Assembly: GCA_001630475.1 (NCBI GenBank)
Contig: KV419402.1
Coordinates: forward strand, 637,691 to 701,690
Reading direction: 5' to 3'
Origin: Sistotremastrum niveocremeum HHB9708
Lineage: Eukaryota; Basidiomycota; Agaricomycetes; Sistotremastrales; Sistotremastraceae
Length of the DNA stretch: 64,000 bases
The position numbers and the translations under genes were made by a program. Position 1 is the stretch's first letter; every line of letters starts with the position of its first letter. A model generated the notes under the pieces. That model made no database searches and was not told where the DNA came from. It was given only the letters and a program-made list of their open reading frames with translations. Below are positions 3,065 through 62,944 of the stretch, one piece after another.

Positions 3065-5024
3065 ATGATGTTCAGTCTGCGCAGGAGGAACCTGACGCGA
3101 CTATCCTTTCTGGGCGCCGTCCTGGTGTCCATCTACCTCATTTTCGCCCCCTCACGTGCTTCCCGAGACGAAATCAAGCAGCATGGTGTCTTTGAACGAA
3201 TAACAAGAGGAATCGACAAAACTTTAGACCCTCAGAGAAATTCATTTCTTCAGTCTCGAGTGGGAAGAGATGAGTCGTATGATTTGTTGAAAGGGGTGAT
3301 CAACGATGGAGTGACAGACTATTGGGAGAGATTTCAAAAACCATTGTGCGTATTTGATTCCGTTAACACGTTCGCCTGGTCTGACCCCTACTTGCAGTAT
3401 TACTGGTTATGATACGTCTCATGTGGACCACCAAATTGTGCGAACTGCAATGGAAGATCTGCTCTCTCTCAATGGTTGGGTCGCTGCCGATTGCCCTACA
3501 CTCATTCGACCGTTTGGCCAGAACAACAAAGAGAACACATACGATGATCTCGCCCGACAAAATCACCTCTATTTCATCGCCATTGTCATCCATTCAGCCG
3601 ATCATTTCCTTCTCGATCAACTCGCCGTAATCGTGCAAATGGCCAGACGCTTGGGTCCTCAAAATCTCTTTGTGTCTATGTTGGACTACGATTCCAAAGA
3701 CGCGACGGCCACTCTGCTAGATCTTTCAGAAGCCGTGTTGACTCTTTTGGGCGTCCCCTTCAAGATTCGACATGTAACGGGGGCAACCTCCGACGAGTCG
3801 GCGGCCTACTACCCCGCTGAGGAAGCCTACACAAGGAATCTCGTCCTTCAGCCTCTGAGGGAGCTGTATGAGAGGCGAAAAGTCCAATTCCATCGTGTTA
3901 TTTGGTTGAAAGGATTTACGTGCCCCAATGATATCTTCGAGACTATTCGAGTCAGTCAGGCGAATTCTGCGGCTATGGTCTGTGGGATGGACTGGGCTGA
4001 GCACAACGGGTTCTTTATATTCTCAGATCGGTGCGTCTCCTATGACTTTCACTTAGCCGATATCTAACTTCGCGCAGATGGAGAACTCGAGATATGGATG
4101 GTGATCAATTCCGTCAGTCAAAGTCGTCATCCAAACCTGATGCCGGTCCCCCACGCGACAAGCATGGCTCTGAACGTTACGCGGTTCACTTGCCATTCCA
4201 AGTCTTTTGTTGCGAATCAGGGACGCACATCGTCGACCCATCGCAGAGCTACTATCGAGGCATCAAATACCGCGCCGGCGAGAACTTCCACAATCTTTCC
4301 ACCTCGGATCCCACCCCCGAATGGGCACCCGATGCGCCGTGTATGGACAGCAGTCAGGCTTGGTTCTGCAGAGATCTGTGGATCGATGCGGCCAAGGTGG
4401 GGACAAAGGAGTCGGAGAAGGAAGCTTATCAACCTCAATGGGAAGAACCTCATGACGTACAGCCTGTGAGGAGAGTGCGCCGTGACGCAGAGCCAGCTGC
4501 AGAGGCAGAGGCAGATAACTTGGGTGCGGACGGAGAAAAGCCTGCTGAAGAAGAGGCAGAACCGGCTGAGAAGGGCCAACCTCCCCCCAGTGACGCAGAT
4601 GCCAACGTGGGCTCCGACTACGATGCCATGCCAGACACGGATGAAGGACTGGATGAGATCATTCCGTCGAGCAAATTCAGTATCCCCAATTCTGCTTTCA
4701 GTCCTGCGCGTATTCTTGTCAATCCACGATGTGTGACCACATACGCTGGCGTCAGTCACACGAAGCTTGCACAGGATCTTTTCGGAGACAGAGATGACGA
4801 GTCGGCTGTGGGCGGAAAGTACGTACTCGACGATTGGGAAGGAGCCCCGGATAGCTTTGTATGTCAAGAACAGAGGTGAGATGACGTTTTATCCTGTTAT
4901 CGATAAATGACTTACGTCTTACATTTATTATAGGCACACTGGTGGTAGGAAAGCGACCAAAACGCAACGGCGGTTAGGTTTCTCTGTCCACGATGAACTA
5001 GAACGCATGGGAGAAATTGTTTAA
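3065..5024 (+). CDS. CAP59-like alpha-1,3-mannosyltransferase
   Basis: Type II membrane glycosyltransferase of the cryptococcal CAP59/CMT1 family (Pfam CAP59_mtransfer), expected to act in the Golgi or ER on cell-wall or capsular mannans. Four exons: 3065-3345, 3398-4030, 4078-4875, 4934-5024. A single N-terminal anchor (about residues 10-27) follows an Arg-rich cytosolic start. Family landmarks are an SMLDYDSKD acidic motif, the block around VCGMDWAEHNGFFIFSDRW, and PFQVFCCESGTHIVDP. An acidic Glu/Ala/Asp-rich insert of about 70 residues (encoded near 4470-4670) interrupts the C-terminal half and looks disordered. The start is the first of two adjacent ATGs. The donor substrate is inferred from the family, not seen in the sequence. 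Confidence 0.9.
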
Positions 5025-23250: not shown

Positions 23251-25925
23251 CAGAAGTTGTGGTATAGCATTTCTTCGAGGTCATGCATGAATATACCCCA
23301 ATGTAGCTCGTTGACGATGGCATGGCCTGCTACACTCTGCGTCGATGTCACTCTGCACAATTATTTTAGTCAGCGTGAGAGGAAGCTAAACATAGACCTA
23401 CATAGTGTGTTGCATCATAGTCAGCGATTGAATGCGACGGCGAAGGAACACGAAGATACTGACGCACTAGACCTCAGGCTAGCGGAAGAGATCAGCTTCG
23501 CGTTCGTTGGCGGAAGCATCGTCACGCGCACTGGAACAATTCATTTAACCCAATATACCTAGCGACATGCGAGTTAGCCGTCGTCTGTGTTTCAAGAGCT
23601 GACCCACGACAATAGACGTGCGTCGAGCTTACCAGTCAGCTGGGAAAGAGCACCGAACGGACTTCTGCAGCTCTAAGCTCTCATTCAGAGATACGGGTAT
23701 CTCGATAGATTATTCTCGAGTTCACTTGGGTCATTGAATCGGTGCCTGAATGACTCTTTCGGAATCCGTCACCACGGTCGCTGGAATCAAATGTGTACGA
23801 CTGCATTCTCGAACCAGGTGACAGGTTCAAGTTGAGCTGAGGAGAATTGGGATTAGTGCAAGTACTAGTCAATCTAGGCTCATGAACGTTTCTTACCACA
23901 TCTCCATTTCATTGTTGAAACTCCACTACATTGCCGGAAAGACGCATATGAGGCGAGGAAAGTCGAAAGAGTTGACAAACATCAAACGTGTACTATAGAG
24001 GGAGCGTGGGAAATCGGCTAGTTGGCCGCGCCCTGATTGTCATGGGAAACGCTGACGCCGGTCTCGGCGCTGCTTCCATTTGGGGCGGATTATCTGAGAG
24101 GATTTTTCGGACAAACGAGTGCTATGCAATCTGGGGATGTCGGAGTCCTGCAGAGGGAGAGCAAACAAAAAAAAATCGGTTTATTTGCATTTCATTTCAA
24201 TTTTTGTTTCAAAGAATATGGGAACTGACACATCTACCGATAACTGACGGTAGGACATTAACAAGACTGTGCATCCTTTGACCTTCCTAGGGGCAAAAGT
24301 ATCCATTTCGGCATGATCTTCCAGCGTTACTGAATCCTGGATTTGGATAAATCACTCTGCACCCAAATAGTCAGTCCCGACATTGATTGGGTTGCCGAAG
24401 TCCGAAACTTTAACATGACCAGGGGTAAGAAGTGTAAGATTAGGGAGCCAGAGTGATCACTTAGCGACGACTATAAGCTTCTTCCCATGCATGAACCATG
24501 TCGAAGCAACCGATTATCAATTCTTTCAGGGGTAGAGTCTCGTTAAAGATATTCGGCTATGACGCTGTAGTTTTCGTTGTCCGACGCAAAGTCTTCTTTC
24601 ACGCAAAGTCTTCTTTCACGCAAAGTCTTCTTTCACGCAAAGTCTTCTTTCACGCAAAGTCTTCAGATTGAAAATCGAAAACCACATGTAGTACAGCGTA
24701 CATGACCGAGCTTGGTCCCGCATATTGAAGAAGGAAGATGGAGCTACAGTCCCATTGTGTCTCAGTTCGTTTGTTTGGCTGATGCGGGATGGACTCCACC
24801 GTCGAGTCTAGTGCGGATATTGTCTGGCTCTCACAGACACGGATAGCCAAGTTTTCTCAGTAAGCTGAAGAGCTGTCTCAGCTTACAATCCGTGCAACTA
24901 CTATATGCCAATGGATCAGTGACCTGGGTCGATTCGGAGAACTCATATAGATGTTGACGTACCATCAAACATCGGTCCAGCTATTTGAGGTCACCAGGAA
25001 AACAGGATGATGACGGGTTCTTTCTGAACGTGATATCAGGACACCAGTATCGATGAGAGTATTACAGAAAAGTAGACAGAGTAATTTCCCGGTATTTGTA
25101 GGCTTTAGAGAGCTTTCCTTGTCGATAGGAGGCCTCTTGAGTTTTAGTGGATAGGAACAATTGGTCTTTTATTGAAAGGTTCGCTGAGGGCTAAAACGAA
25201 TCACGAGTCCAACATAAAAAATCTGGCCACACCAGTAACGACCTGTTCTTCAGGGCCGACATTCATTTCGTTTCACATCACATATGGGTGCGGCCGTCCA
25301 TCACTAGTCAAATTGGACGTTGCAACGAAGAGAAGAGGCGAGCATTAAGGCGAAGAGTCTTCAAGAGTAAAGTTGAAGCTTCAGTCGACGTCGGACTGTG
25401 GTGCTGGAGCTCCTACTAGGTAGTAATCGAACTGAGGCGCCCTCCTGAATTAAACGCACGAAGATACGACAGGCGCCCCGTAGATTTCCAGCACAAATTC
25501 ATAGAGTAGTACCCGGCCTTCATAGACGTGCAAAATTCATTCTGAGTGTTAGGGAGGGATATGGCATGTTCAAGGTCGCGCTCTTTGCCGGCGCCTCTCC
25601 TCTGCACCTTCATCACTGCTATAGCCTCATTCCAGGTCTTGAATATACTCTCCATCGCATGTATACCGCAATGTACACCTCAGGCGTTCATCTCGACGCC
25701 CATCACGTACTTCTGCGCCTAAACGGCTGATGTGGCTTCACTAGAGCAAGGCCTGCGCGCGACTTGGCTGGTCTTCTCAGGACTTAACCCTAGTATAATT
25801 ACTGGTGGCGCTTGGCTGGGCGACTGTCTGCCTGCCAGATCACTGGCCTTGTCTCATCCTTGTTGCTTCAAAAAATTCGTTGGGGTCAAACAGATCAAGC
25901 CAGAGTGCCACCGCCAGCCCCCGCA
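23251..25925. other. Intergenic region
   Basis: About 2.7 kb without a supportable gene. Frames at 23197-23562 and 25416-25655 have no recognisable features. The 17-bp tandem repeat inside it is listed separately. The last 200 bp are the leader of the CAX gene. Confidence 0.4.
24584..24664. repeat. 17-bp tandem repeat, 4.8 copies
   Basis: Unit ACGCAAAGTCTTCTTTC repeated in perfect head-to-tail order: four full copies and a 13-bp partial copy, with no mismatch seen. A young minisatellite. Confidence 0.9.
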
Positions 25926-27974
25926 ATGCCTATCGACGGTCTACCATCGAATGGGCATAATGGATTGTCCAACGTCATCCATGACGATCCAGAACTCGGT
26001 CTCCAACGACGTCCAACTGTCAATAAAACTGATCCCGAACAATCGACTGGAGATGGTGCTAAGGCACGACAACGAACATTGGGCGAACAAGCCGAGGACA
26101 TTCTCGAATTCGCGCTAGTGGAAGCAAAAACTGAGTCGGCGCAATTCTGGAAGAGACTGACAGGGACTGGAAAAAGGGTGCCTTCATGGAGAATGAGCTT
26201 GAGAAATATCGTCATGTCGAGCCCACTCAATGTGCTGCTGGTTTTCCTTCCTATCGCGTGGGTCGCGAGATACAAGGCGGATCATTTCAACGAAGCGGAA
26301 AGGTTCTCTTGTAAGTTTTCGTCTTTAATGCGATGCAATAAGAGATACTAACTTCAGTTGTTCCTTAGTCGCCTTTCTAGCTATTATACCTCTGGAAATG
26401 ATGTTTCGATGGGGCGGTGAACAGATGGCCCTGTATCTGGGAAAGGTACGTGTCTCGCATCTCCATCCGCATAGCCATCTTATATACTCTCAGTCCCTTG
26501 GTGACCTGCTGGAAATCACCTTGTCAAAGTATGTCCATGTCGTCCAGAGGAAACTATGCTGAGCTTCAGTAGTGCAGTTGAAGCAACGCTCGCAATTTTT
26601 CTTCTATTCAAGTGCGAGTAAGTTCTCACTTTTCACATCTGTCATATTCGTCAATGTTCTTTCCGCAGACTGCGCCTCGTCCAATCGACCATTATCGGCG
26701 TTCTGATCCTACATCTTCTCCTGATTCCTGGCACATCGTTTCTCGTCGGCGGCGTACGCATTCTAGAGCAAAATCTGGAGGAACGCGAAACCCAACTCAA
26801 TCATTCGCTCCTTACTCTTGGCGTCATGGCCATCATGCTACCAACAGCTCTGTTCACCGCACTCAATAGAGGAGATATTCTATCAGAAGCAAGAGGAGGG
26901 GAGCATAGCGCTGGGACCGCATTGTTGACAGATGAGACCCGAGGTCACTTCTTGGTGTTCAGCAGAGCACTGGCTATATTGTTGCTCGCAGTGTACGTCC
27001 TACGTTTCTTCCATGCGTTTCTCGTACTCATGCGGATGTAGTTACGTATGCTCTCGTATATTTCGTCACAATCCTCCGGGAAAGAAGGATCTGAGTGCGG
27101 GCGATGCTGAACCTCCGCCAGAAAAGGAGCCTGAGACGAATCCTTGGGCATGTATAACTCTTCTTGTTGTCACCATCAGCATCATGGCGCCTACTGCTGA
27201 ATGGGTACGTCCGAACATTGCTTAGATCAATAAAGAAGCTCATGCACACTCTCAGCTTGTCGACGCTGTAGCTGAGATCGAAGAGGGCTCTAGCATACAA
27301 GACGAGTACGTGAAAGCCTCCTGAGCTCGGTTTCAACGGCTCATCAAACCCATTGATTAGGTGGCTTGGACTATTTCTTCTTCCGCTCGTCTCATTCGGC
27401 GCCGACGGAGCAGTAGCGACACTCTTCTTCCTCAAGAAAATTTTGACCATGAACTATAAGCTTGAGGTGCCGGATGAGTTGGCAAGGGGTATCGCCATCG
27501 ATCTCAGTATACAGTTCGCTCTATTTTGGATGCCATTCTGTGTTGTCCTGGGATGGTGGATTGGGAAACCGCTCACCTTGCCTATTGGTGTGTCTTTATT
27601 TCATCAGGTCAGGATATAAATTGAATGATTTGTCAGATTTGTTCGAGGTGTCAGTGCTGATGGCCACCTGTTTGTACGTTTTCTCTTGCTTCGCAGGAAA
27701 AGTGATTTCGTATTGATAACAGTTTGCTTCAGCCTTGTGAACTACGTCACCGCAGATTCGAAAACGAACTGGGCGGAAGGCCTGATCATGATTGTTTTCT
27801 ATGTTATGATCGTACGTATTCCCCTTGCTGCAGACGGGTGATGGTTCTCATTACTTCAAGGCTATTGTGGCTTGGTTCTATCCCGGTCAAGAGGAGATCA
27901 TACCGTTCATGAGATGCGAGAGCGTGGCATCGGCGCTCAGCGGTTTGCTGAACGGGACGATCACTCCAGACTAA
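25926..27974 (+). CDS. CAX-type cation/proton exchanger, paralog 1
   Basis: Membrane antiporter of the calcium/proton exchanger family, probably vacuolar, swapping Ca2+ or another cation for H+. Multi-exon; start ATG 25926, stop TAA 27972-27974. A soluble N-terminus of about 90 residues precedes the segment SSPLNVLLVFLPIAWVARYK. The first pseudo-repeat has GDLLEITLSNAVEATLAIF, with the conserved N-A-V-E ion site; it needs the second of two adjacent AG acceptors. The second repeat reads LLPLVSFGADGAVATLFFL, where the family normally has GNAAEH. A charged loop (PPPEKEPETNPW) separates the halves. The end EEIIPFMRCESV is shared with paralog 2 at 51887-54095, and exon boundaries look alike. The substrate is not proven; monovalent-cation VNX1-type transport is an alternative. 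Confidence 0.88.
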
Positions 27975-28317: not shown

Positions 28318-30047
28318 TTAGTCTTCTGATGCAGTATCGAATTCCACAAGATCTTGGGTGCTAGGGTCGGATTTCCAACGTACAATACCGCCCTCTAACA
28401 CAAATGCTTGAGAAGTCGTGATGCTTTGCGCCTCGAGATAATCTTGATACCTAGCAAATATATATGTTACTCGACCGCGGGGACATTGACAACTAATCGC
28501 GTACCATCCCGCACATCGAGGACCACGCCCGTTAGAGCGACCGCAGTAAAATATTACCTTGGGTATATGCCCATATGCAGACAAAAAAGCCGGTAAATTG
28601 TCGTAGAACGATTGGGCTCGCCATTGAACGCTTCCGATTACATGGCCGCCCTGAAAATATGAGGAAAATTACGGATTAGAGATACAGATACACACCGCAT
28701 GGTCTTCCCCTCGAACGTCAACGACTAAATAACCATGGCCCGAGCGGAGCTCGGCAATCCGAATCATTTCAGCAAGGGTACTCGGTGACATGAGATCGGG
28801 GGAACATCGCGCGGGCGGATATGCATCCCACCATCTCAAGAGCACAGATGGGGTTGGCTGTGTTATATCACTAGAGTCGTCGGGCTTGACGGCGTATATG
28901 TGATAGGAAGCTATTTCGACAGACATCATCAAAAGCGCCCCAATTTTCTTGATTTGGAGATACTTACCAGCCCATTCGTTCGCGTCAAAAGACGCTTCTG
29001 GGACGGTGGACGACGGAGGAGGAGCAGTGCCACAGCAAGCGGGCTCTTCGGTCTTCTCGGTGAAATATACGTTCAGATCGGATCCGGTAGCGACAAAGGT
29101 CGCGTCTGGTAAATTCTATGAGCTCGTGTGAACATTCAAGACGTGATGATGGAGTACCTTCCAAGCCCGCCTGTTCCAAAAGGCCTTTGTATTCATGCAG
29201 CTGGATGGCTCCCGAGATACAGCCAACGTAAAGAGCTAAGTCATCACGGATTTGATCAGGAAGCGATTTCTTGGCAACGATCTATGCAATTGTGGGTCAA
29301 CCAGAAAAGGGGATCGAGGGCCTTCGAACATACATCGCTAAGAGCCAAGCGGCCTCCCGGTTTCAAAACGCGAAATATTTCACGAAATATATGTAGCTTT
29401 CCGGGAGGAGGGAGTAGATTGATGACGCAGTTACTCAGGACGCAGTCAACAGAAGATGTAGCGATAGGAAGGGGTTCTGTAAGTTGTGCCGCCACGAATG
29501 CCACATGGGGTGGGCTGAATCCTTGCTTGGTCGCATTCTGCCGTGCTTTGGCGACCATATCCTGTGATGCATAAGTTCTTGGGAAGTATGATGGGGAAAA
29601 TAGAACACATACATCCGAACCATCCAGTCCTATGGCTTGTCCAGTCTTGCCAACCTTGCGCGCCGCGAGGAACACATCGAAGCCACCTCCTGACCCCAAG
29701 TCGAGGACCGTTTCTCCCTAATAGCGATGAGAAGGTCTCTCGAGGTTATGGTGGTAAGCTAACTTCTTTAATCGATGCATTCGCGACTGGATTGCCACAC
29801 GCAAGGCCCATATGAGACTCTGAAGGAGCAGTCTTGATTTCGTCGGCCGTATAGCCAAACGCATTGGCAACTCGCACTGAATCTGGACGTTCGTCAGCAT
29901 GTACGCTCGCCAGTCAGACAAGGGCATGATTTGATACTTACACGCTTCATTGTGGTCTGTCTTCGCGATGGTGCTATAGGCTTCGCGGACTACCTGAACC
30001 AGTTTGGCGTCTTGATCGTTGGCATTACTACTCATGACAGGGTCCAT
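28318..30047 (-). CDS. Fused arsenite methyltransferase - rhodanese/Acr2-type reductase
   Basis: Nine in-phase exons (30047-29942, 29876-29764, 29717-29613, 29561-29334, 29281-29158, 29105-28968, 28910-28696, 28650-28505, 28450-28318) total 1308 nt and encode 435 aa. Residues 1-281 are an AS3MT/ArsM-type methyltransferase. It has the SAM loop LDLGSGGGFD and the arsenite-binding cysteines C62 (LACGNP), C153 (SNCVINL) and C205 (VGCISGA), nearly the positions 61, 156 and 206 of human AS3MT. The methyltransferase end SYHIYAVKP runs on to RWWDAYPPAR, DVRGEDHA and the loop YCGRSNGRGPRC (C379-x5-R385), typical of fungal rhodanese/Cdc25-like arsenate reductases. The fused protein could reduce arsenate and then methylate arsenite. 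No transcript evidence is available here; two genes with readthrough would be the alternative. Confidence 0.87.
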
Positions 30048-51633: not shown

Positions 51634-51858
51634 CTACAAGAACACTCTTGACACGGTCTCGAATACGACCCAGACCGTAACAAATACAAGAAACCCAGTA
51701 ACGAGCCCAGTAACATTTTTCAAAGAGGCACGCTGGAAATTTCCAGATGAGGACAAATTCTTAGCAGGCGCCGCCAAGAACTCCACGCCGAACACGATTC
51801 GATGGCCCTTGCTCGTCTGAACGCGGCCATGTCCAATACCCGTCTCTCCTTCAACCAT
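51634..51858 (-). CDS. Possible small tail-anchored protein
   Basis: A 74-codon frame starting at the ATG at 51858, divergent from and 28 bp from the CAX paralog 2 start. It begins MVEGETGIGHGRV and ends in one strongly hydrophobic segment (VTGLVTGFLVFVTVWVVF) with a short polar tail, the layout of a tail-anchored or small membrane protein. The frame overlaps the presumed CAX leader and has no recognised family, so it may be chance. Confidence 0.3.
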   Translation of the reverse strand: MVEGETGIGHGRVQTSKGHRIVFGVEFLAAPAKNLSSSGNFQRASLKNVTGLVTGFLVFVTVWVVFETVSRVFL

Positions 51859-51886
51859 CACCGTCTCCCGCTCTCCTTATACCCCG

Positions 51887-54095
51887 ATGTCTAGAGATCC
51901 CCATCCCTCTCAAACTCGTTCAGCCGTAATGTCGTCCTCGCCAACCAGTCGTGTCATCAGTCCATCTTCGAGTGGACGTTCTGAAAAGACGTTACAGTCC
52001 TCGAACAGCAATATCGGTCCTGGTCTTCAACGACGCCAGACCCGTGTCCCAGATCCAGAACGTCAAGGATCTCTCCCTCCTCCTGGTACATTGGCATCTG
52101 CTAATGGCAATGGCGCGAATGGACTGGAAGACCCCAATGAAGCTCAGACTTATACTGAAATGGCTGAAGATCTCTTCGAACGAGGATATGAAGAAGCAAA
52201 AACGCGCTATCGACGATTCTGGGATCGCTTACGCGGGAAGGGAAGGAACGTACCAGGGTGGAAGAGGAGTTTGAAGAATATCATCATCTCGAGTCCCCTC
52301 AACGTGCTTTTCGTTTTCTTACCTGTGGCATGGGTCGCACGATGGAAAGACGATCATTTCAGCGAGGGAGAAAGATTTGCTTGTGAGTCCTCGTAGATCA
52401 TTGGCTGTGGTGGCATCATGATACTGATCGATAATGTCGTAGTTGCATTTTTGGCTATTATTCCGCTGGAAACGATGTTCCAATGGGGTGGTGAACAGAT
52501 GGCTTTGTACCTTGGCAAGGTTCGTATTTTATTTCGTATCCTCGATGATTTCGTCTCATCCATACATTAGGAACTGGGTGATCTGATGGAAATTACTTTA
52601 CATAAGTATAGTCCAGCATTGCTCTTTCTCGTCGACGAAGTACTGACGGATTATATAGCGCCGTCGAAGCAGCTCTAGCAATATTCCTTCTGGCCAAATG
52701 CGAGTACGTACACTCCTCCCCTCCACCCATTCCACTCTCCTGACAACGCCATCGCCCAGACTCCGCCTCGTCCAATCTACAATCATCGGCGTAATAATCC
52801 TCCATCTCCTCCTCATCCCCGGTACATCCTTCTTAATAGGCGGTGCCCGAATCCTGGAACAGAATCTTCACGAACACAATACCCAACTGAACCACTCCCT
52901 CCTCACTCTCGGAGTGATGACGATAATGCTTCCTACGGCGTTCTTCACTGCGTTAGATAGAGGCGATATTATTGGGGAAGCGAGAACTGGGGAGAATAAT
53001 CAGGGAACGGAATTGTTGACTGATGATAGACGGGGACAATTCTTACAGTTCAGTCGAGCTTTGGCGTTGCTTTTACTTGGAGTGTACGTCCCCTTTCTTC
53101 CCTTCGATCATCTTTTCTAATGCTGCTACAGGTATATATGCTCGAGGATATTCTTGCATAATCCTCCTGGTGAACTGACATTACACGAATACGACGCCGA
53201 AGCGCCGGAGATCAAGAAAGAAGAACAGAAAGTGAAAGAGAAGTTGAGAGAGGAAGATCCAGAACTGAACCCTTGGATATGCATACTTCTTCTCGCTGTG
53301 ACTATTGGTATAATGGCACCTACAGCCGAATGGGTGCGTTACTCATTCCATGGAGTCTCTTCGAGTGATTAATGCTACACCAGCTCGTAGATGCAGTAGC
53401 AGAAATCGAGGCGGGCTCATCAATCCAAGACGAGTACGCACCTTCCTCTTCCCTCCCCAAACCCAAATCTAACACAATACTCCAGATGGCTCGGCCTATT
53501 CCTCCTCCCGCTTGTCTCATTCGGCGCAGACGCAGCAGTCGCAACCCTCTTCTTCCTCAAAAAGATTCTCTTCCTCGCACCCGAACCTCCGGCTGAATTA
53601 GCTCGAGGCATCGCTATAGATCTGAGTATCCAATTTGCGTTGTTCTGGATGCCTTTTTGTGTGGTTTTGGGGTGGTGGATTAATAAACCCCTTACTCTCC
53701 TTTTTGGTGGGCCTCGATCTTGCTTCTCTGTATGTGAAACGAGAGTCGATCGGTTCGTGCAGATCTGTTTGAGGTGTCGGTGCTGATTGCTACTTGCTTG
53801 TACGTCCGCTGGATCATTATTCGTGTTGTAGAAGTATTGACGTTTATGCAGCCTTGTGAACTACGTTACGGCGGATTCAAAAACAAACTGGGCAGAAGGT
53901 GTCATTATGATCGCCTTTTATGCTATGATTGTTTGTCTCTCCTTTTATTTCCGGCGAACTGAATGTTAATCCACCATGCAGGGCGTCGTGGCTTGGTTCT
54001 ATCCCGGTCAGGAGGAAATCATACCGTTCATGAAATGCGCGGGTGTAGGAGAGACATTGAGCGAGTTAATCAATGGGACGCTCTCGCAGGATTAG
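51887..54095 (+). CDS. CAX-type cation/proton exchanger, paralog 2
   Basis: Second exchanger of the same subfamily as 25926-27974; close relatives 26 kb apart on the same strand. ATG at 51887, stop 54093-54095. The Ser/Arg-rich soluble N-terminus has SPTSRVISPSSSGRSEKTL. Then come SSPLNVLFVFLPVAWVAR, FWRGGEQ-type text (FQWGGEQMALYLGK) and the first ion-site segment HNAVEAALAIFLL. The second site is again changed: VSFGADAAVATLFFL in place of GNAAEH. The end DSKTNWAEGVIMIAFYAMIGVVAW matches paralog 1. The inter-half loop is longer and more acidic than in paralog 1 (EIKKEEQKVKEKLREEDPE). Probably vacuolar or Golgi; the cation is undetermined. Confidence 0.88.
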
Positions 54096-57341: not shown

Positions 57342-58133
57342 TTATTTTCTGACGAGCCGGCCGACTCTATGCCAGAAAAGGTGTTCCTCGGGCTCGCCTT
57401 CTTTGACCCACATCCTGCTCTGACCTTCGCTCCAGTCCCACTCCGTACTTTGTTCAATCCAAATATGACTCGGCTGATCCAATCTACATCCACCAAAAAA
57501 TCTCTTCCAAACAGGCGTCCAAAATGCCTGCCAAAAGCTCACATCTCGAAGATGCGAGCGAACGTGTTCGTAGAATAAAATTTGGCCACCGGCCGGTTTG
57601 AGGGTCCGATTTACGAGTGAGTTGATGGTCTTTTGGGGAGAAGGGATGGAACATAGTGTGAGGATGGTGATGAGAGTATCGATAGTGTGTTCTCCTCCAA
57701 TTTGAGTGATAATTTTATCGATTTCTTCAGCTCCGTAGGGAATGATGTCAAAATTCCCTTTCGCCTTCGAATATCCGTATTTCGCAGCTCGTGATATGAT
57801 ACGAGCGTGCATACGCTCGTTAGGCTCCAATGCGATGAATTTTGTGATACGAGGATGATCGAGGTAATCGAGTGTATGTCCGTGGCCTGCGCCAATGTCT
57901 AGGACTACACCATATGCATAAGGTGGGATGAGGTCTTGTTTGGAAGATTTAGCATTGCCATCTACTCCATCTCCGTAAGGTATCCAAAGGAGAGAAAAGA
58001 ATAGATCGGAGAGCTTGGACGGATGAAATATAAGGGATGGATGCTTTAAGAGTGCGCTGAGGAAGGGTAAGAGGACCAAAGTTAGCCCTCCTCGCATGTC
58101 TGAGATTGGAGAGAGGATGGCGGGTAGCTTCAT
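57342..58133 (-). CDS. Class I SAM methyltransferase (METTL7-like)
   Basis: Single-exon 263-aa methyltransferase. A hydrophobic N-terminus (LTLVLLPFLSALLKHP) suggests membrane association. The SAM-binding glycine motif is VVLDIGAGHGHTLDYL (about residues 76-91), followed by the acidic strand end FIALEPNERMH. Post-motifs are DTLITILTLCSIPSP and LKPAGGQILFYEHVRSHL, the layout of Methyltransf_11 proteins related to METTL7 thiol or lipid methyltransferases. The C-terminal region is Trp-rich (WDWSEG, MWVKEG, LFWHRVGR). The substrate is unknown. The lack of introns is unusual in this window. The right end of the TIR transposon lies about 100 bp from its stop codon. Confidence 0.85.
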   Translation of the reverse strand: MKLPAILSPISDMRGGLTLVLLPFLSALLKHPSLIFHPSKLSDLFFSLLWIPYGDGVDGNAKSSKQDLIPPYAYGVVLDIGAGHGHTLDYLDHPRITKFIALEPNERMHARIISRAAKYGYSKAKGNFDIIPYGAEEIDKIITQIGGEHTIDTLITILTLCSIPSPQKTINSLVNRTLKPAGGQILFYEHVRSHLRDVSFWQAFWTPVWKRFFGGCRLDQPSHIWIEQSTEWDWSEGQSRMWVKEGEPEEHLFWHRVGRLVRK

Positions 58134-58782
58134 CGTCGATTAGATGGCTGGCGACGAGGACGTGGTGGGAGTTCGGTAAACAAAAGAACAGAGTCCGACG
58201 TCGCGGCTTATTCAGTGCCGCGGTCAGCGTGGAGGTCTCAATTTGCGCGTTCAGAGTCAGCTATCATCGATCCCAGCGCGCCTGTGGATAGCGAGGTTAT
58301 GAAGAAATATAGGTATCCGTATGGAATATAGGAAGAGATAGTTAAGTGGGCATGTGTGCTTCAGGTTGAAGGCGTACATTCCAGTGACAGATGATGCTCA
58401 GCACAGAGCACCGCGGACTATCCTATGAACAACCAAGCGAGCATCAGAATGGCAAGCGTTTTCCATGAGGACAGGATCGTTCGTGAAAGCTGAAGTAGAT
58501 TTGAATTTCTTGGGGCAGTTCAAGTCGATTGAGCTTGCTCGCAGGCTGGTTGGTTGAGAGGTCTTACTTTCGGAGTCGGGCATCGGACTTCACCTACTCG
58601 CCTGGCACACGCAAAATTACTGACTATAGTGCAAGTTCATAGCAGCACAGTCTTCTGAAGGTTTTACACCATCCCGTCCATTATATTCTAATTTTCAATC
58701 TGTTGACGCGTGTCATTTAGGGCCTCGTTTGACGCGTCGCGGTTAGCTCAAGAGTGGAGTCGCGCCGCAAGTTGACTGCCCG
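58134..58782. other. Intergenic region
   Basis: No gene is seen. The final 100 bp form the promoter of the first F-box gene, with two ACGCGT sites listed separately. Confidence 0.4.
58706..58737. promoter_or_regulatory. Two ACGCGT (MCB-type) sites, F-box gene A
   Basis: ACGCGT at 58706-58711 and 58732-58737, 77 and 51 bp upstream of the ATG. The motif is the MluI-box bound by MBF (Swi6/Mbp1-type) factors at G1/S genes. All three tandem copies have it near the start. Confidence 0.45.
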
Positions 58783-60534
58783 ATGTCCAAGTTATTGCAA
58801 TTACTCGAAACTTTCGAGACGAACTTCTCAGAAGAAATGTGAGTCCCCTATGATATACACGCTATGATCAAGATCATGAAAGCGTCGAATGGCTAGCCGT
58901 CAACAAACCTTGAGTCACTATGCTTCGGGCCAAAGGATAACGACTATAAATGAAACCCAGCAAGGTAAATCTTGATCATCTGTTCGGCTCGTTATAAAAC
59001 TCGCTTCCTGATCCTCCTTAGCTCTAGCTCAAATGGAATGCCGAATGAAAGCGTACCTGACACAGCAGCGTAACATGTGTATGCCCATCGGACGCCTATC
59101 GGTGGAAATTGTTGTGGAGATTCTTGAGTATTGCTTGGAACAGGGGCTGGATCGATGCACGCCTCGTATTATATACCCATCTGCCTTTTTCTGGTGAGAT
59201 ACTGTTGGTGGAATTGGACGTGGATCTTGCTCATAAACGTTAGGTGCAAAACATGGAGGACCATAGCGATAAATACACCATCACTATGGTCCCAAATCTT
59301 TCTTCCCGCACCTCGCAAGATGTTTAGGCTTCTTCGAGACCGCAGCGGGACCGCATCTTTGACCGTATTCGTCCTCGCTAGCAAACACACTCTGAAAGAC
59401 TCGGAGCTGACTTGGGTCGGCAATGCTCTTTGTGAAATCATCCCTCGGATCTCGCATCTGACGCTGGAATGGTCTCTCCACAAGAGTTCCGGAATTCTTC
59501 GCGAGTTCCTTCTGGCATATGTGGGTCAAAAACAATTTGATCGTCTCCGATTCTTGGAGTGGGACGTAATGTTGCATGAACCTTCATCTGAGATCTTCAC
59601 GTTGAACGCTCCGGAAGTGAGATCTTTGAAAGTGAACGGGGAGATGTTTCGAGCTCTACGCTTGCCATGCCCCCACGTCGTTCGACTGCAGCTTATCCTT
59701 GACGATGTTTATATGTCATCAGAAGAAATTCTCGGTCTACTTTCCGAAGTGCCGTACCTGGAGCATTGCGAAATTAGCGACCCTGAGCCGATCTCTGGTC
59801 CTTTAACGACCAATTCTCGACCGCTCGTCCTGCTTTCCAATCTTCGATATCTAGCCATCGGTGCAGTAACGATCCGCCATGCAGGGTATTTACTTCAACA
59901 CCTCGAGATTCCCTCTTCCGCGAAGGTACAACTTGAAATATGGAGCGACGACTCGGAGGGTGAATCAGAGGATGTACCACACTTCGTCTCTCTTAAAAGC
60001 GTTCTTCCGACTAGCATGGCCCCTTTCCTCGGCCTTGGAATGACATTTACTGGTGTAAACTCCTGTTTCACCTTCACCACGGAGTCGGAAGGATCATTGG
60101 CTTTAGACTGTCAATTTGACAACTTGGCTCAATTGTTTTCTGAACCCTCAGATCTCGCCTCGTATGCCGCAATCCTGACCGAAGTCGAAGTGCAGTACAT
60201 GCCCTTCACGCTGCCCGCAACACGTCACTTGATCAATGCTTTTCTGTTGTGGTCGCGCATCACACAACTCAGGGTTCAACTAGACGAGAACGACTTCGAA
60301 AGACTGTTGACCGCGCTCGAGGACACGCCGGAAATCGTTTGTCCTCGCCTTCGGATTCTTGACTGTGGGGACACCAAATTAAGCAGTGCACGCATGGTTG
60401 TCTTCTTGGGGTTTCGGAGGGACAAAGGTGTTCCAATCACGGAATTGACAGTGTCGAGAAGGTGCATAGAGGGTGATGTGAATGACCTTTCTCCTTTGGT
60501 GACAAAACTTGTTATCACGGATTTGGATCCATGA
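58783..60534 (+). CDS. F-box-like protein, tandem copy A
   Basis: Predicted 528 aa from four exons (58783-58838, 58897-58964, 59022-59193, 59244-60534); the sum is 1587 nt. Agaricomycete-expanded F-box family. The F-box-like segment is MPIGRLSVEIVVEILEYCLE, split by an intron before the conserved KTWRTIAINTPSLWSQIFLP. It would bind Skp1 in an SCF ubiquitin ligase. The rest is a leucine-rich, LRR-like array with irregular repeats (LTLEWSL, LRFLEWDV, VRSLKVNG, LRYLAIG), presumably substrate-binding, ending FLGFRRDKGVPITELTVSRR. Exon 2 is 68 nt in this and both sister copies. Frame intact throughout. The substrate is unknown. Confidence 0.82.
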
Positions 60535-61175: not shown

Positions 61176-62944
61176 ATGTCGAGGGATCCGAAGTTGGATG
61201 CCTTATTCAACAATTGTTATTCAAAGGGTTTGAGACGAAGCTGGAGGAACAGCTGTGAGTCTTTTGCAACTTTCCACAACGTGAACAGAACTTGATGATA
61301 TCTGACTCTGTGTAGTCAACAACGCCTGCTTGGATCCGGGGACTACTCTGCGAGAGTCAGTGCCATTGAAAGCACTGAACAAGGCGAGTCGCGTTGATTT
61401 CTTGCCAAATTGATAACTTGCAACTTACAGCATTATCCTGCAGCCTGGAGCGAAATGGAACAACGGATGAACCTCTACCTGAAACGACAACGGAACATGT
61501 GCGCACCGATAGGACGGTTACCTGATGAACTTGTTGTGGAAGTTCTTCGATACTGCTTGGACAGTGAAAATAGTGTATATTCCAACAGCTTGTGGTGCCC
61601 ATTCCGGATCCCACCCGCGTATTCCTTGTAAGCAAGCTTGCTTGTAAGTTCATGTCAGCCCTGTATCGAATTGAGAGCCACTTTAATCTTCCCTTTAGAT
61701 GTGCGAGGTGGAGGACTGTCGCAGTCAATGCTCCATCTCTATGGTCAAAAATCATTCTCCCGCTACCCTTAAAGATGTTTAAGCTGCTTCGCGATCGGAG
61801 TGTTCCGGCCTCTCTAGATCTCGACGTTTTCGTCTCATACGAACTTTTCGAGCGTGACGATGATCTTATCTCCCGAACCGGCGATTCTCTACGCCATATC
61901 GTTCCTCGCGTCTCGCGGTTGCATGTGAGGCATCCAGCAGACAACCAAATGAACGATTTCCTAGGGTCACACATAGGACAGAAAGAATTCAGCTCGCTCA
62001 CATCTCTTGAGGTGGATGAGAGCGAAATAGAAGACGATATCAGGGAGGCTGTATATGTTCTCAATACACCTCTCCTCCGCAAACTCGCCTTTTTCGGCAG
62101 AACATCCAGTCTGTCACGCTTTCCTCTCGCAAACCTGACCGACATGACACTTGACGCAATGTCTTTGAGTGGGCTAGAAATCCTCAAGCTACTCTCTGCG
62201 ACGCCGCGGCTGGAGTGCTTCGATATTGTCTATGGCGATGTCGTCTGTTCTGATGATACGATCCCCTTACCAAACGTATCGCTCCCGTTACTTCGAAGAC
62301 TTGCCATAATTGAGTTATTGACGGACGAGGCAGACCGTTTACTGTACCATCTTGAGGTACCTCCATCTGCCCATCTGAAGCTATGGGTAAGTAATGACGG
62401 ACATTCTACTACCATCGAAGATTTCATTGGTCGTCATATGGCCACGCACTATGGACTCAAGATCTTCGTCGAACCTCTTACATTCACATTGATGTCGAAG
62501 TGTAAAGAGGACATCTCGTTCTGTACACTGCTTGATTCCGAGCCGGCGGTAGATTTCCTGGCCCTTTCCAAACATCCTACGAACCTCTCCCGGCTCGAGC
62601 TGGCGATAGAACTCCCCCCTATAAAGGTTCTCATCGGAGCACTGCGTGCATAGGATCTTCTTACCCACATATGTGTCCGCGTCGACGAGGACGACTTCGA
62701 AAGACTGTTAACAGCCTTAGAAGAAACCCCAGATATCGTCTGTCCGGCCTTGACTATCCTGGATTGCACCGGAACAAAATTTAGCACCATTCGCTTGTGT
62801 TTCTTCCTCCGCTTTCGAAGAGATAAAGGTGTTCCTATGGAGGAGTTGAGGATCACAAGAGGATCTGCTGAAGGTGGCGTGGACGCTCTTTTACCGTTGG
62901 TGGCGGAGTTTTTTGAAGTGGATGAAGTCATTGAAACGTACTAG
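61176..62944 (+). pseudogene. F-box-like protein, tandem copy B (broken)
   Basis: Clear sister of copy A: the 68-nt exon 2 (61316-61383), APIGRLPDELVVEVLRYCLD, RWRTVAVNAPSLWSKIILPL, an LRR-like body and the ending RFRRDKGVPMEELRITRG. Three oddities point to decay. In exon 1 the frame beginning at the ATG (LDALFNN) does not continue into LFKGFETKLEEQL, and the frame that joins exon 2 lacks an ATG. Intron 2 has a GC donor (GGCGAGT). A TAG at 62651-62653 lies in frame, where copy A has sense codons, before a still-conserved 97-codon end. The rest of the 353-codon main frame is uninterrupted, so decay is recent or a truncated protein is made. Confidence 0.75.

Follow-up and report, generated by a model that had tools for sequence, protein, structure and literature searches.

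The gene at positions 30047-28318, on the minus strand of the window (the whole 64,000-nucleotide stretch of DNA analysed), very probably encodes, as read from genomic DNA, a single protein in which an arsenite methyltransferase (ArsM) is fused to a rhodanese-fold domain. On balance, we favour the reading that this protein is a bifunctional enzyme that would both reduce As(V) and methylate As(III), and we infer the two activities, the order of the steps and the benefit of linking them from the predicted protein.

Gene structure and splicing

The gene was rebuilt as nine exons that together give 1314 nt and a protein of 437 aa, with the sole stop codon at the end. All eight introns are bounded by GT-AG and are 45–59 nt in size, and CTNAY branch-point motifs, which are not decisive here, are present in five of them. 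The shortness of the introns, like the CAP59-type mannosyltransferase encoded elsewhere in the window, suits a gene that is probably from a basidiomycete. An earlier note on this DNA had described nine GT-AG exons with an open frame and a total of 1308 nt. The same exons and open frame were obtained here, and the difference in length arises at exon 2, which has two possible acceptors (29883 and 29877) lying 6 nt apart, such that the protein would be 435–437 aa long. Acceptor 29883 gives 1314 nt and the residue numbering used throughout (C64, C155, C207 and C381-x5-R387), while acceptor 29877 reproduces the 1308 nt of the earlier note together with its residue numbers (C62, C153, C205 and C379-x5-R385). 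The features of the gene are as follows.

Exon 1: 29942..30047, minus strand; ATG start at 30047 and N-terminus of the ArsM part.
Exon 2: 29764..29882 (alternative start 29876), minus strand; AFGYT through to C64GNP, with the first predicted arsenic-binding Cys.
Exon 3: 29613..29717, minus strand; SAM-binding motif VLDLGSGGGFDVFLA.
Exon 4: 29334..29561, minus strand; SNC155VINL, with the second predicted arsenic-binding Cys.
Exon 5: 29158..29281, minus strand; GC207ISGA, with the third predicted arsenic-binding Cys.
Exon 6: 28968..29105, minus strand; ArsM C-terminal region, with the Cys-Cys pair C251, C252.
Intron 6: 28911..28967, 57 nt, minus strand; in frame, without a stop, and containing ATGATG.
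Exon 7 (fusion exon): 28696..28910, minus strand; ArsM strand ASYHIYAVKP, linker, then RWWDAYPPAR through to VVDVRGEDHA.
Exon 8: 28505..28650, minus strand; rhodanese-fold domain with the catalytic-type loop C381GRSNGR387.
Exon 9: 28318..28450, minus strand; end of the rhodanese-fold domain and stop codon.

The ArsM part contains six joins; when the protein was aligned with bacterial ArsM, five of them, those of introns 2–6, were found in gap-free aligned stretches, and this homology supports the predicted splicing of the ArsM part. The join at intron 1 lies in a gapped, poorly aligned stretch and hence falls outside this check.

The junction lies within a single exon

Exon 7 is open throughout. 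Since the end of ArsM and the start of the reductase-type part are both carried by this stop-free exon, the fusion is independent of any guessed intron, and the placement of the junction within one exon (28696-28910) by the earlier note is confirmed. The final strand of ArsM ends at residue 283 (KP283) and is followed by a linker of ~15 aa, after which RWWDAYPPAR begins at residue 299. The terminal strand reads AASYHIYAVKP in the window protein versus AASVQVYAVKP in bacterial ArsM, and it is conserved in the bacterial clade (for example, YNVNEYAASVQVYAVKP in locus L009 and YDVNDYAASVRVFALKP in locus L014). The junction in the window protein reads FDANEWAASYHIYAVKP, in which intron 6 interrupts the AAS; at this join the spliced sequence ANEWAASYHIYAVKP aligns without gaps to VNEYAASVQVYAVKP of L009. 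Among the matches listed, ArsM homology in the nearest bacteria extends to residue 283 and stops within the exon that opens the reductase part. Two Pfam domains, Methyltransf_31 at residues 73–225 and Rhodanese at residues 329–421, were found in the same protein, so that the fusion is not due to chance. With one open frame holding both domains, the single-gene fusion proposed in the earlier note is strongly supported at the genomic level.

It is very improbable that the locus instead yields two products by way of separate or alternative transcripts, with the fused model being an over-join. Translation of a reductase-only protein could begin at the ATGATG of intron 6, as a single frame without stops (ORF 28669-29115) extends through exon 6, intron 6 and exon 7, and intron 7, if retained, would bring a stop into the frame and truncate the reductase; however, no stop separates the domains in exon 7, and a separate reductase would start with the terminal strand of ArsM, which is conserved in bacterial ArsM. 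There is thus a small chance of a reductase-only protein from the intron 6 ATGATG, and such a protein would retain the ArsM strand.

The N-terminal part is an ArsM-type methyltransferase

By its family matches, the region of residues 1–283 is a predicted complete arsenite methyltransferase. It was matched by Pfam Methyltransf_31 with an E of 7.5e-31, and the best NCBIfam family was the arsenite methyltransferase PRK11873 (E 1.6e-73; 247.5 bits, below the cut-off of 263). In the PDB, the arsenic methyltransferases 4kw7 and 4fr0, which we take to be those of the alga Cyanidioschyzon, matched the ArsM part with a best E of 1.8e-28. These three sets of matches agree with the AS3MT identity assigned earlier from the sequence. 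The three methyltransferase cysteines, previously described as intact, were likewise borne out: C64, C155 and C207 pair with cysteines in the 4kw7 alignment (CmArsM 72, 174 and 224) and are invariant across an alignment of seven sequences. The C251–C252 pair in exon 6 is common to the bacterial clade.

A fourth, N-terminal Cys (CmArsM 44) is absent, C64 being the first Cys of the protein; the earlier note was silent on this position. In a crude count, the N-terminal Cys was also missing in 21 of 88 fetched proteins, including 18 of the 22 clade relatives; the count covered 88 of 91 proteins, checked that stretch only and used crude start choices. An ArsM requiring only two conserved cysteines has reportedly been described in the title of a study, and the missing fourth Cys is therefore no strong objection. 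We take the missing position to be equivalent to Cys32 of AS3MT. Because a Cys32-type position is absent, methylation of inorganic As(III) is not assured, and the first methylation step may be limited. In the available passages of PMC5398495, Cys32 of AS3MT is described as required for the first methylation step and not for the second. Most ArsM of transfer hosts have four cysteines in the account given by the available passages of PMC5552862, in contrast to the window protein with its N-terminal one lacking, and the ArsM set of that study demanded only three of the four.

Relatives of the ArsM part

Of the 91 loci fetched for comparison, 6 come from plasmids (our choice among the 25 that were listed out of 157 matching records), 5 from viral contigs and 80 from genomes, these last being the best 80 out of 550 relatives. 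The closest relatives, among the best 80 of the 550 from the genome scan, were ArsM proteins of Acidobacteriota and Planctomycetota; among the matches listed, identity to locus L007 was 50% over 258 columns. A tree was built from 90 rows, with rows of >330 aa cut to the last 330 and with L091 and L063 left out, the latter because its extracted frame was short and not ArsM. The window protein falls within a set of 23 rows with support of 100/95, and the other 22 rows of this set are from Acidobacteriota (11), Planctomycetota (8) and Pseudomonadota (1) or are unassigned (2). Fungal and planctomycete ArsM also group together in PMC5552862 (as Group IV, in the passages available). The N-terminal domain is most likely a three-cysteine methyltransferase of bacterial (planctomycete/acidobacterial-type) descent, and its exact place within the set is unsure because its end branch in the tree is long (1.25).

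The C-terminal part has a predicted rhodanese fold and a seven-residue loop

A rhodanese fold is predicted for the C-terminal part from a match to Pfam Rhodanese (PF00581) at residues 329–421 (E 1.1e-6; 29.5 bits versus a gathering score of 22.2). In a sequence comparison, the nearest solved structure was 1T3K (E 1.4e-6), which was deposited as a dual-specificity tyrosine phosphatase and is presumably Arabidopsis Cdc25/ACR2. The yeast YGR203W structures 3FS5 and 3F4A also matched the C-terminal part (E 2.2e-6 and 2.8e-6), as did CDC25A weakly (E 0.041), while two other structure matches, with E of 0.019 and 0.79, were to unrelated proteins.

The loop C381-G-R-S-N-G-R387, as read from the rebuilt protein, consists of seven residues with C-x5-R complete, in keeping with the earlier description of an intact C-x5-R loop. 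Directly before the Cys, Tyr380 occupies the place of the His of HC-x5-R. The available passages of PMC2994645 give the catalytic loop as seven residues in Cdc25 and six in sulfurtransferases. An ordinary sulfurtransferase was ruled out by the loop being of seven residues rather than six, and the loop length together with the nearest structures favours placement in the reductase/phosphatase branch over the sulfurtransferases. The earlier claim of a rhodanese/Acr2-type reductase is thus favoured as regards the branch, while arsenate reduction in vivo is a predicted activity. As Cdc25 phosphatases have the same loop and the His of HC-x5-R is Tyr here, sequence by itself cannot tell a reductase from a phosphatase.

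Arsenate reduction by Cdc25B/C is reportedly termed adventitious in the title of one study. Active rhodanese domains transfer sulfur or phosphate or reduce arsenate, and the HCx5R enzymes of the Cdc25 type combine a phosphatase with an arsenate reductase activity; Cdc25B/C depend on the Cys and the Arg of the motif to act as reductases, and the mechanism proceeds by attack of the Cys followed by the action of glutathione/glutaredoxin (available passages of PMC10135228).

Search for the fusion in prokaryotic and viral sequences

The fusion was found in none of the 91 prokaryotic and viral-contig loci (0/91), where the best match to the reductase part had an E of 3.0 and none fell below 1. Similarly, no single place in any of the 157 matching plasmid records covered 80% of the fusion protein, and the reductase part alone gave no plasmid match at E 0.1. 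A scan of viral contigs with the fusion protein recovered no relative, and a scan with the alignment recovered five loci, among them L091 with a match only 44 residues long.

Some of the matches listed ran past residue 283, reaching residue 300 in L013, 295 in L058, 310 in L057, 305 in L078, 293 in L065, 331 in L080 and 335 in L040. L013, L057, L058, L078, L080 and L040 were rejected as fusions, their alignments crossing a stop after the ArsM frame ends, and L065 was rejected because its open tail is short, contains Cys pairs and does not match the reductase part. Among the matches listed for 14 whole genomes, none extended beyond residue 286. The reductase part was matched weakly in one of 294 genomes centred on a planctomycete genome (E 1.9e-4) and in two of 297 centred on an acidobacterial genome (E 2.9e-4 and 6.3e-4). 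At two of these weak-match loci (L092 and L093) the matched stretches are rhodanese-like and without the C-x5-R loop, and at the other (L094) the match extends no further than the Cys.

Given that the fusion is missing from all 91 loci and that no place in the 157 plasmid records covers 80% of it, we rejected a bacterial donor as its source. Because the fusion is absent from the prokaryotic and viral loci examined, and matches to the reductase part are rare and weak, the join is probably fungal in origin, and it probably arose after the acquisition of a bacterial ArsM. The fusion would then probably represent a gene of bacterial descent combined with a eukaryotic-type domain.

Proposed function

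In the bifunctional reading that we favour, arsenate bound in the C-x5-R loop would be attacked by C381, and arsenite would be released via glutathione and glutaredoxin. The arsenite, as a glutathione complex, would then bind to C64/C155/C207, either within that polypeptide or in a neighbouring one, and would be methylated with SAM to give mono- and dimethylarsenicals. The earlier note proposed that the coupling would avoid release of arsenite; such channelling between the domains is a hypothesis. In Aspergillus fumigatus, genes annotated ArsC, ArsB and Cyt19 adjoin one another (available passages of PMC3289889), and reduction and methylation genes thus sit together in another fungus. The clusters of that species (ArsC, ArsB, Cyt19, ArsH) differ from the window gene in being composed of separate genes; the likeness lies in reduction and methylation occurring together, with ArsC likened by annotation. 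A more far-reaching proposal, which is tentative and rather unlikely, is that mushroom-type fungi have in this protein an enzyme dedicated to turning arsenate into methylarsenicals. Arsenite would pass between its domains without leaving the protein, and the enzyme would supply the macrofungal As(V) reductase and methylase and feed methylated arsenicals into the formation of arsenobetaine.

Alternatively, the rhodanese-fold domain may have no role in arsenate reduction and act instead as a protein phosphatase, or as a module for regulation or binding. The phosphatase entry and, weakly, CDC25A among the nearest structures, the Tyr in place of the His of HC-x5-R, and the modest Pfam Rhodanese match are all consistent with this. 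We nevertheless consider it unlikely, given that Arabidopsis ACR2 has both arsenate reductase activity and phosphatase activity (available passages of PMC4585942), and that being joined to an arsenic enzyme suggests a function connected with arsenic.

It is quite unlikely that the fused domain serves the methylation cycle, either by reducing pentavalent methylarsenicals or by re-reducing the methyltransferase cysteines between rounds. While its physical attachment to the methyltransferase would suit such a role, and the absent N-terminal Cys would allow for an additional reductant, the clade members without that Cys (18 of 22 in the crude count) show no such domain. Because these bacterial relatives lack the domain, a fused reductant is not required. 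Moreover, the available passages of PMC10135228 describe C-x5-R enzymes for arsenate and phosphate.

If the protein is a bifunctional As(V)-reducing and As(III)-methylating enzyme, as we prefer, then the gene, in joining both predicted activities, would be a direct, clonable candidate for As(V) reduction and methylation in mushrooms. The fusion also makes the coupling testable by point mutants (C381, C155) and by split versions. In the available passages of a 2026 study of Hebeloma mushrooms, the enzymes of As(V) reduction and arsenic methylation are left as an open question (PMC13314834), and those of a 2022 study call arsenobetaine biosynthesis in mushrooms unknown and propose a link with methylation (PMC9609160).

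Comparison with known systems

The window protein shares the SAM motif, the three cysteines, the C-terminal strand and the grouping with Planctomycetota/Acidobacteriota with ArsM/AS3MT Group IV, as described in the available passages of PMC5552862. To the ArsM/AS3MT architecture it adds a C-terminal rhodanese-fold domain that is absent in the 91 fetched loci. This domain has in common with Acr2/Cdc25-type reductases the rhodanese fold (by homology) and the seven-residue C-x5-R loop, and the alignments with 1T3K and YGR203W share a C-x2-S-x2-R-G-P signature, with Ser for the Cys in the 1T3K row. It differs from them in having Tyr for His and a fused methyltransferase, with ~90 residues aligned. 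The yeast Acr2p is likened by description, and its link with Cdc25 and rhodanese is taken from the available passages of PMC4585942.

ArsM fusions as such are already known. In Brevundimonas, ArsM is fused to the repressor ArsR (available passages of PMC10190100), and in Naegleria gruberi to the selenophosphate synthetase SelD (available passages of PMC5552862); the selenoproteins ArsM-AhpD and ArsM-DUF2284 (NCBIfam NF041537 and NF041536) are ArsM fusions with yet other partners. None of these partners (ArsR, SelD, AhpD, DUF2284) is of the Acr2 type. Among the titles and abstract openings listed in searches of open-licence literature, none described an ArsM-Acr2-type fusion. The words "fusion" or "fused" together with "rhodanese" were not found in the main texts searched for them.

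One fetched locus listed as viral, L090 (IMGVR_UViG_3300021310_000168), has a 409-aa frame with an N-terminal helix-turn-helix, ArsR-like by eye, followed by ArsM. It resembles the ArsR-ArsM fusion of Brevundimonas, with the ArsR label assigned by eye.

Neighbourhood and other features of the window

Just past the 3′ end of the window's fusion gene lies a calcium-exchanger-like gene (25794-27974, plus strand; one of its fragments matches Na_Ca_ex with an E of 6.8e-4, short of the cut-off), and upstream of its start, on the same (minus) strand, is a GMC oxidoreductase at ~30.4–32.5 kb. Neither of these recognised neighbours is an arsenic gene, and the 19 window fragments scanned yielded no recognisable arsenic transporter. 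An ORF at 51821-52396 (plus strand) resembles, by eye, the N-terminal part of the calcium-exchanger-like gene (SSPLNVL.VFLP.AWVAR), which suggests that it is a paralogue; Pfam gave no match in the 51821 fragment.

Two long frames on the plus strand, 59128-60534 and 61574-62653, for which Pfam gave no match, are alike by eye (WRT.A.N.PSLWS) and are perhaps tandem F-box-type genes. A second SAM-dependent methyltransferase is found at 57342-58139 on the minus strand (Methyltransf_23, E 6e-8) and is not ArsM-like by eye. Finally, a CAP59-type mannosyltransferase is present in two overlapping frames at 3315-4879 on the plus strand (PF11735; E 7.5e-27 for one frame and, short of the cut-off, 6.1e-6 for the other).
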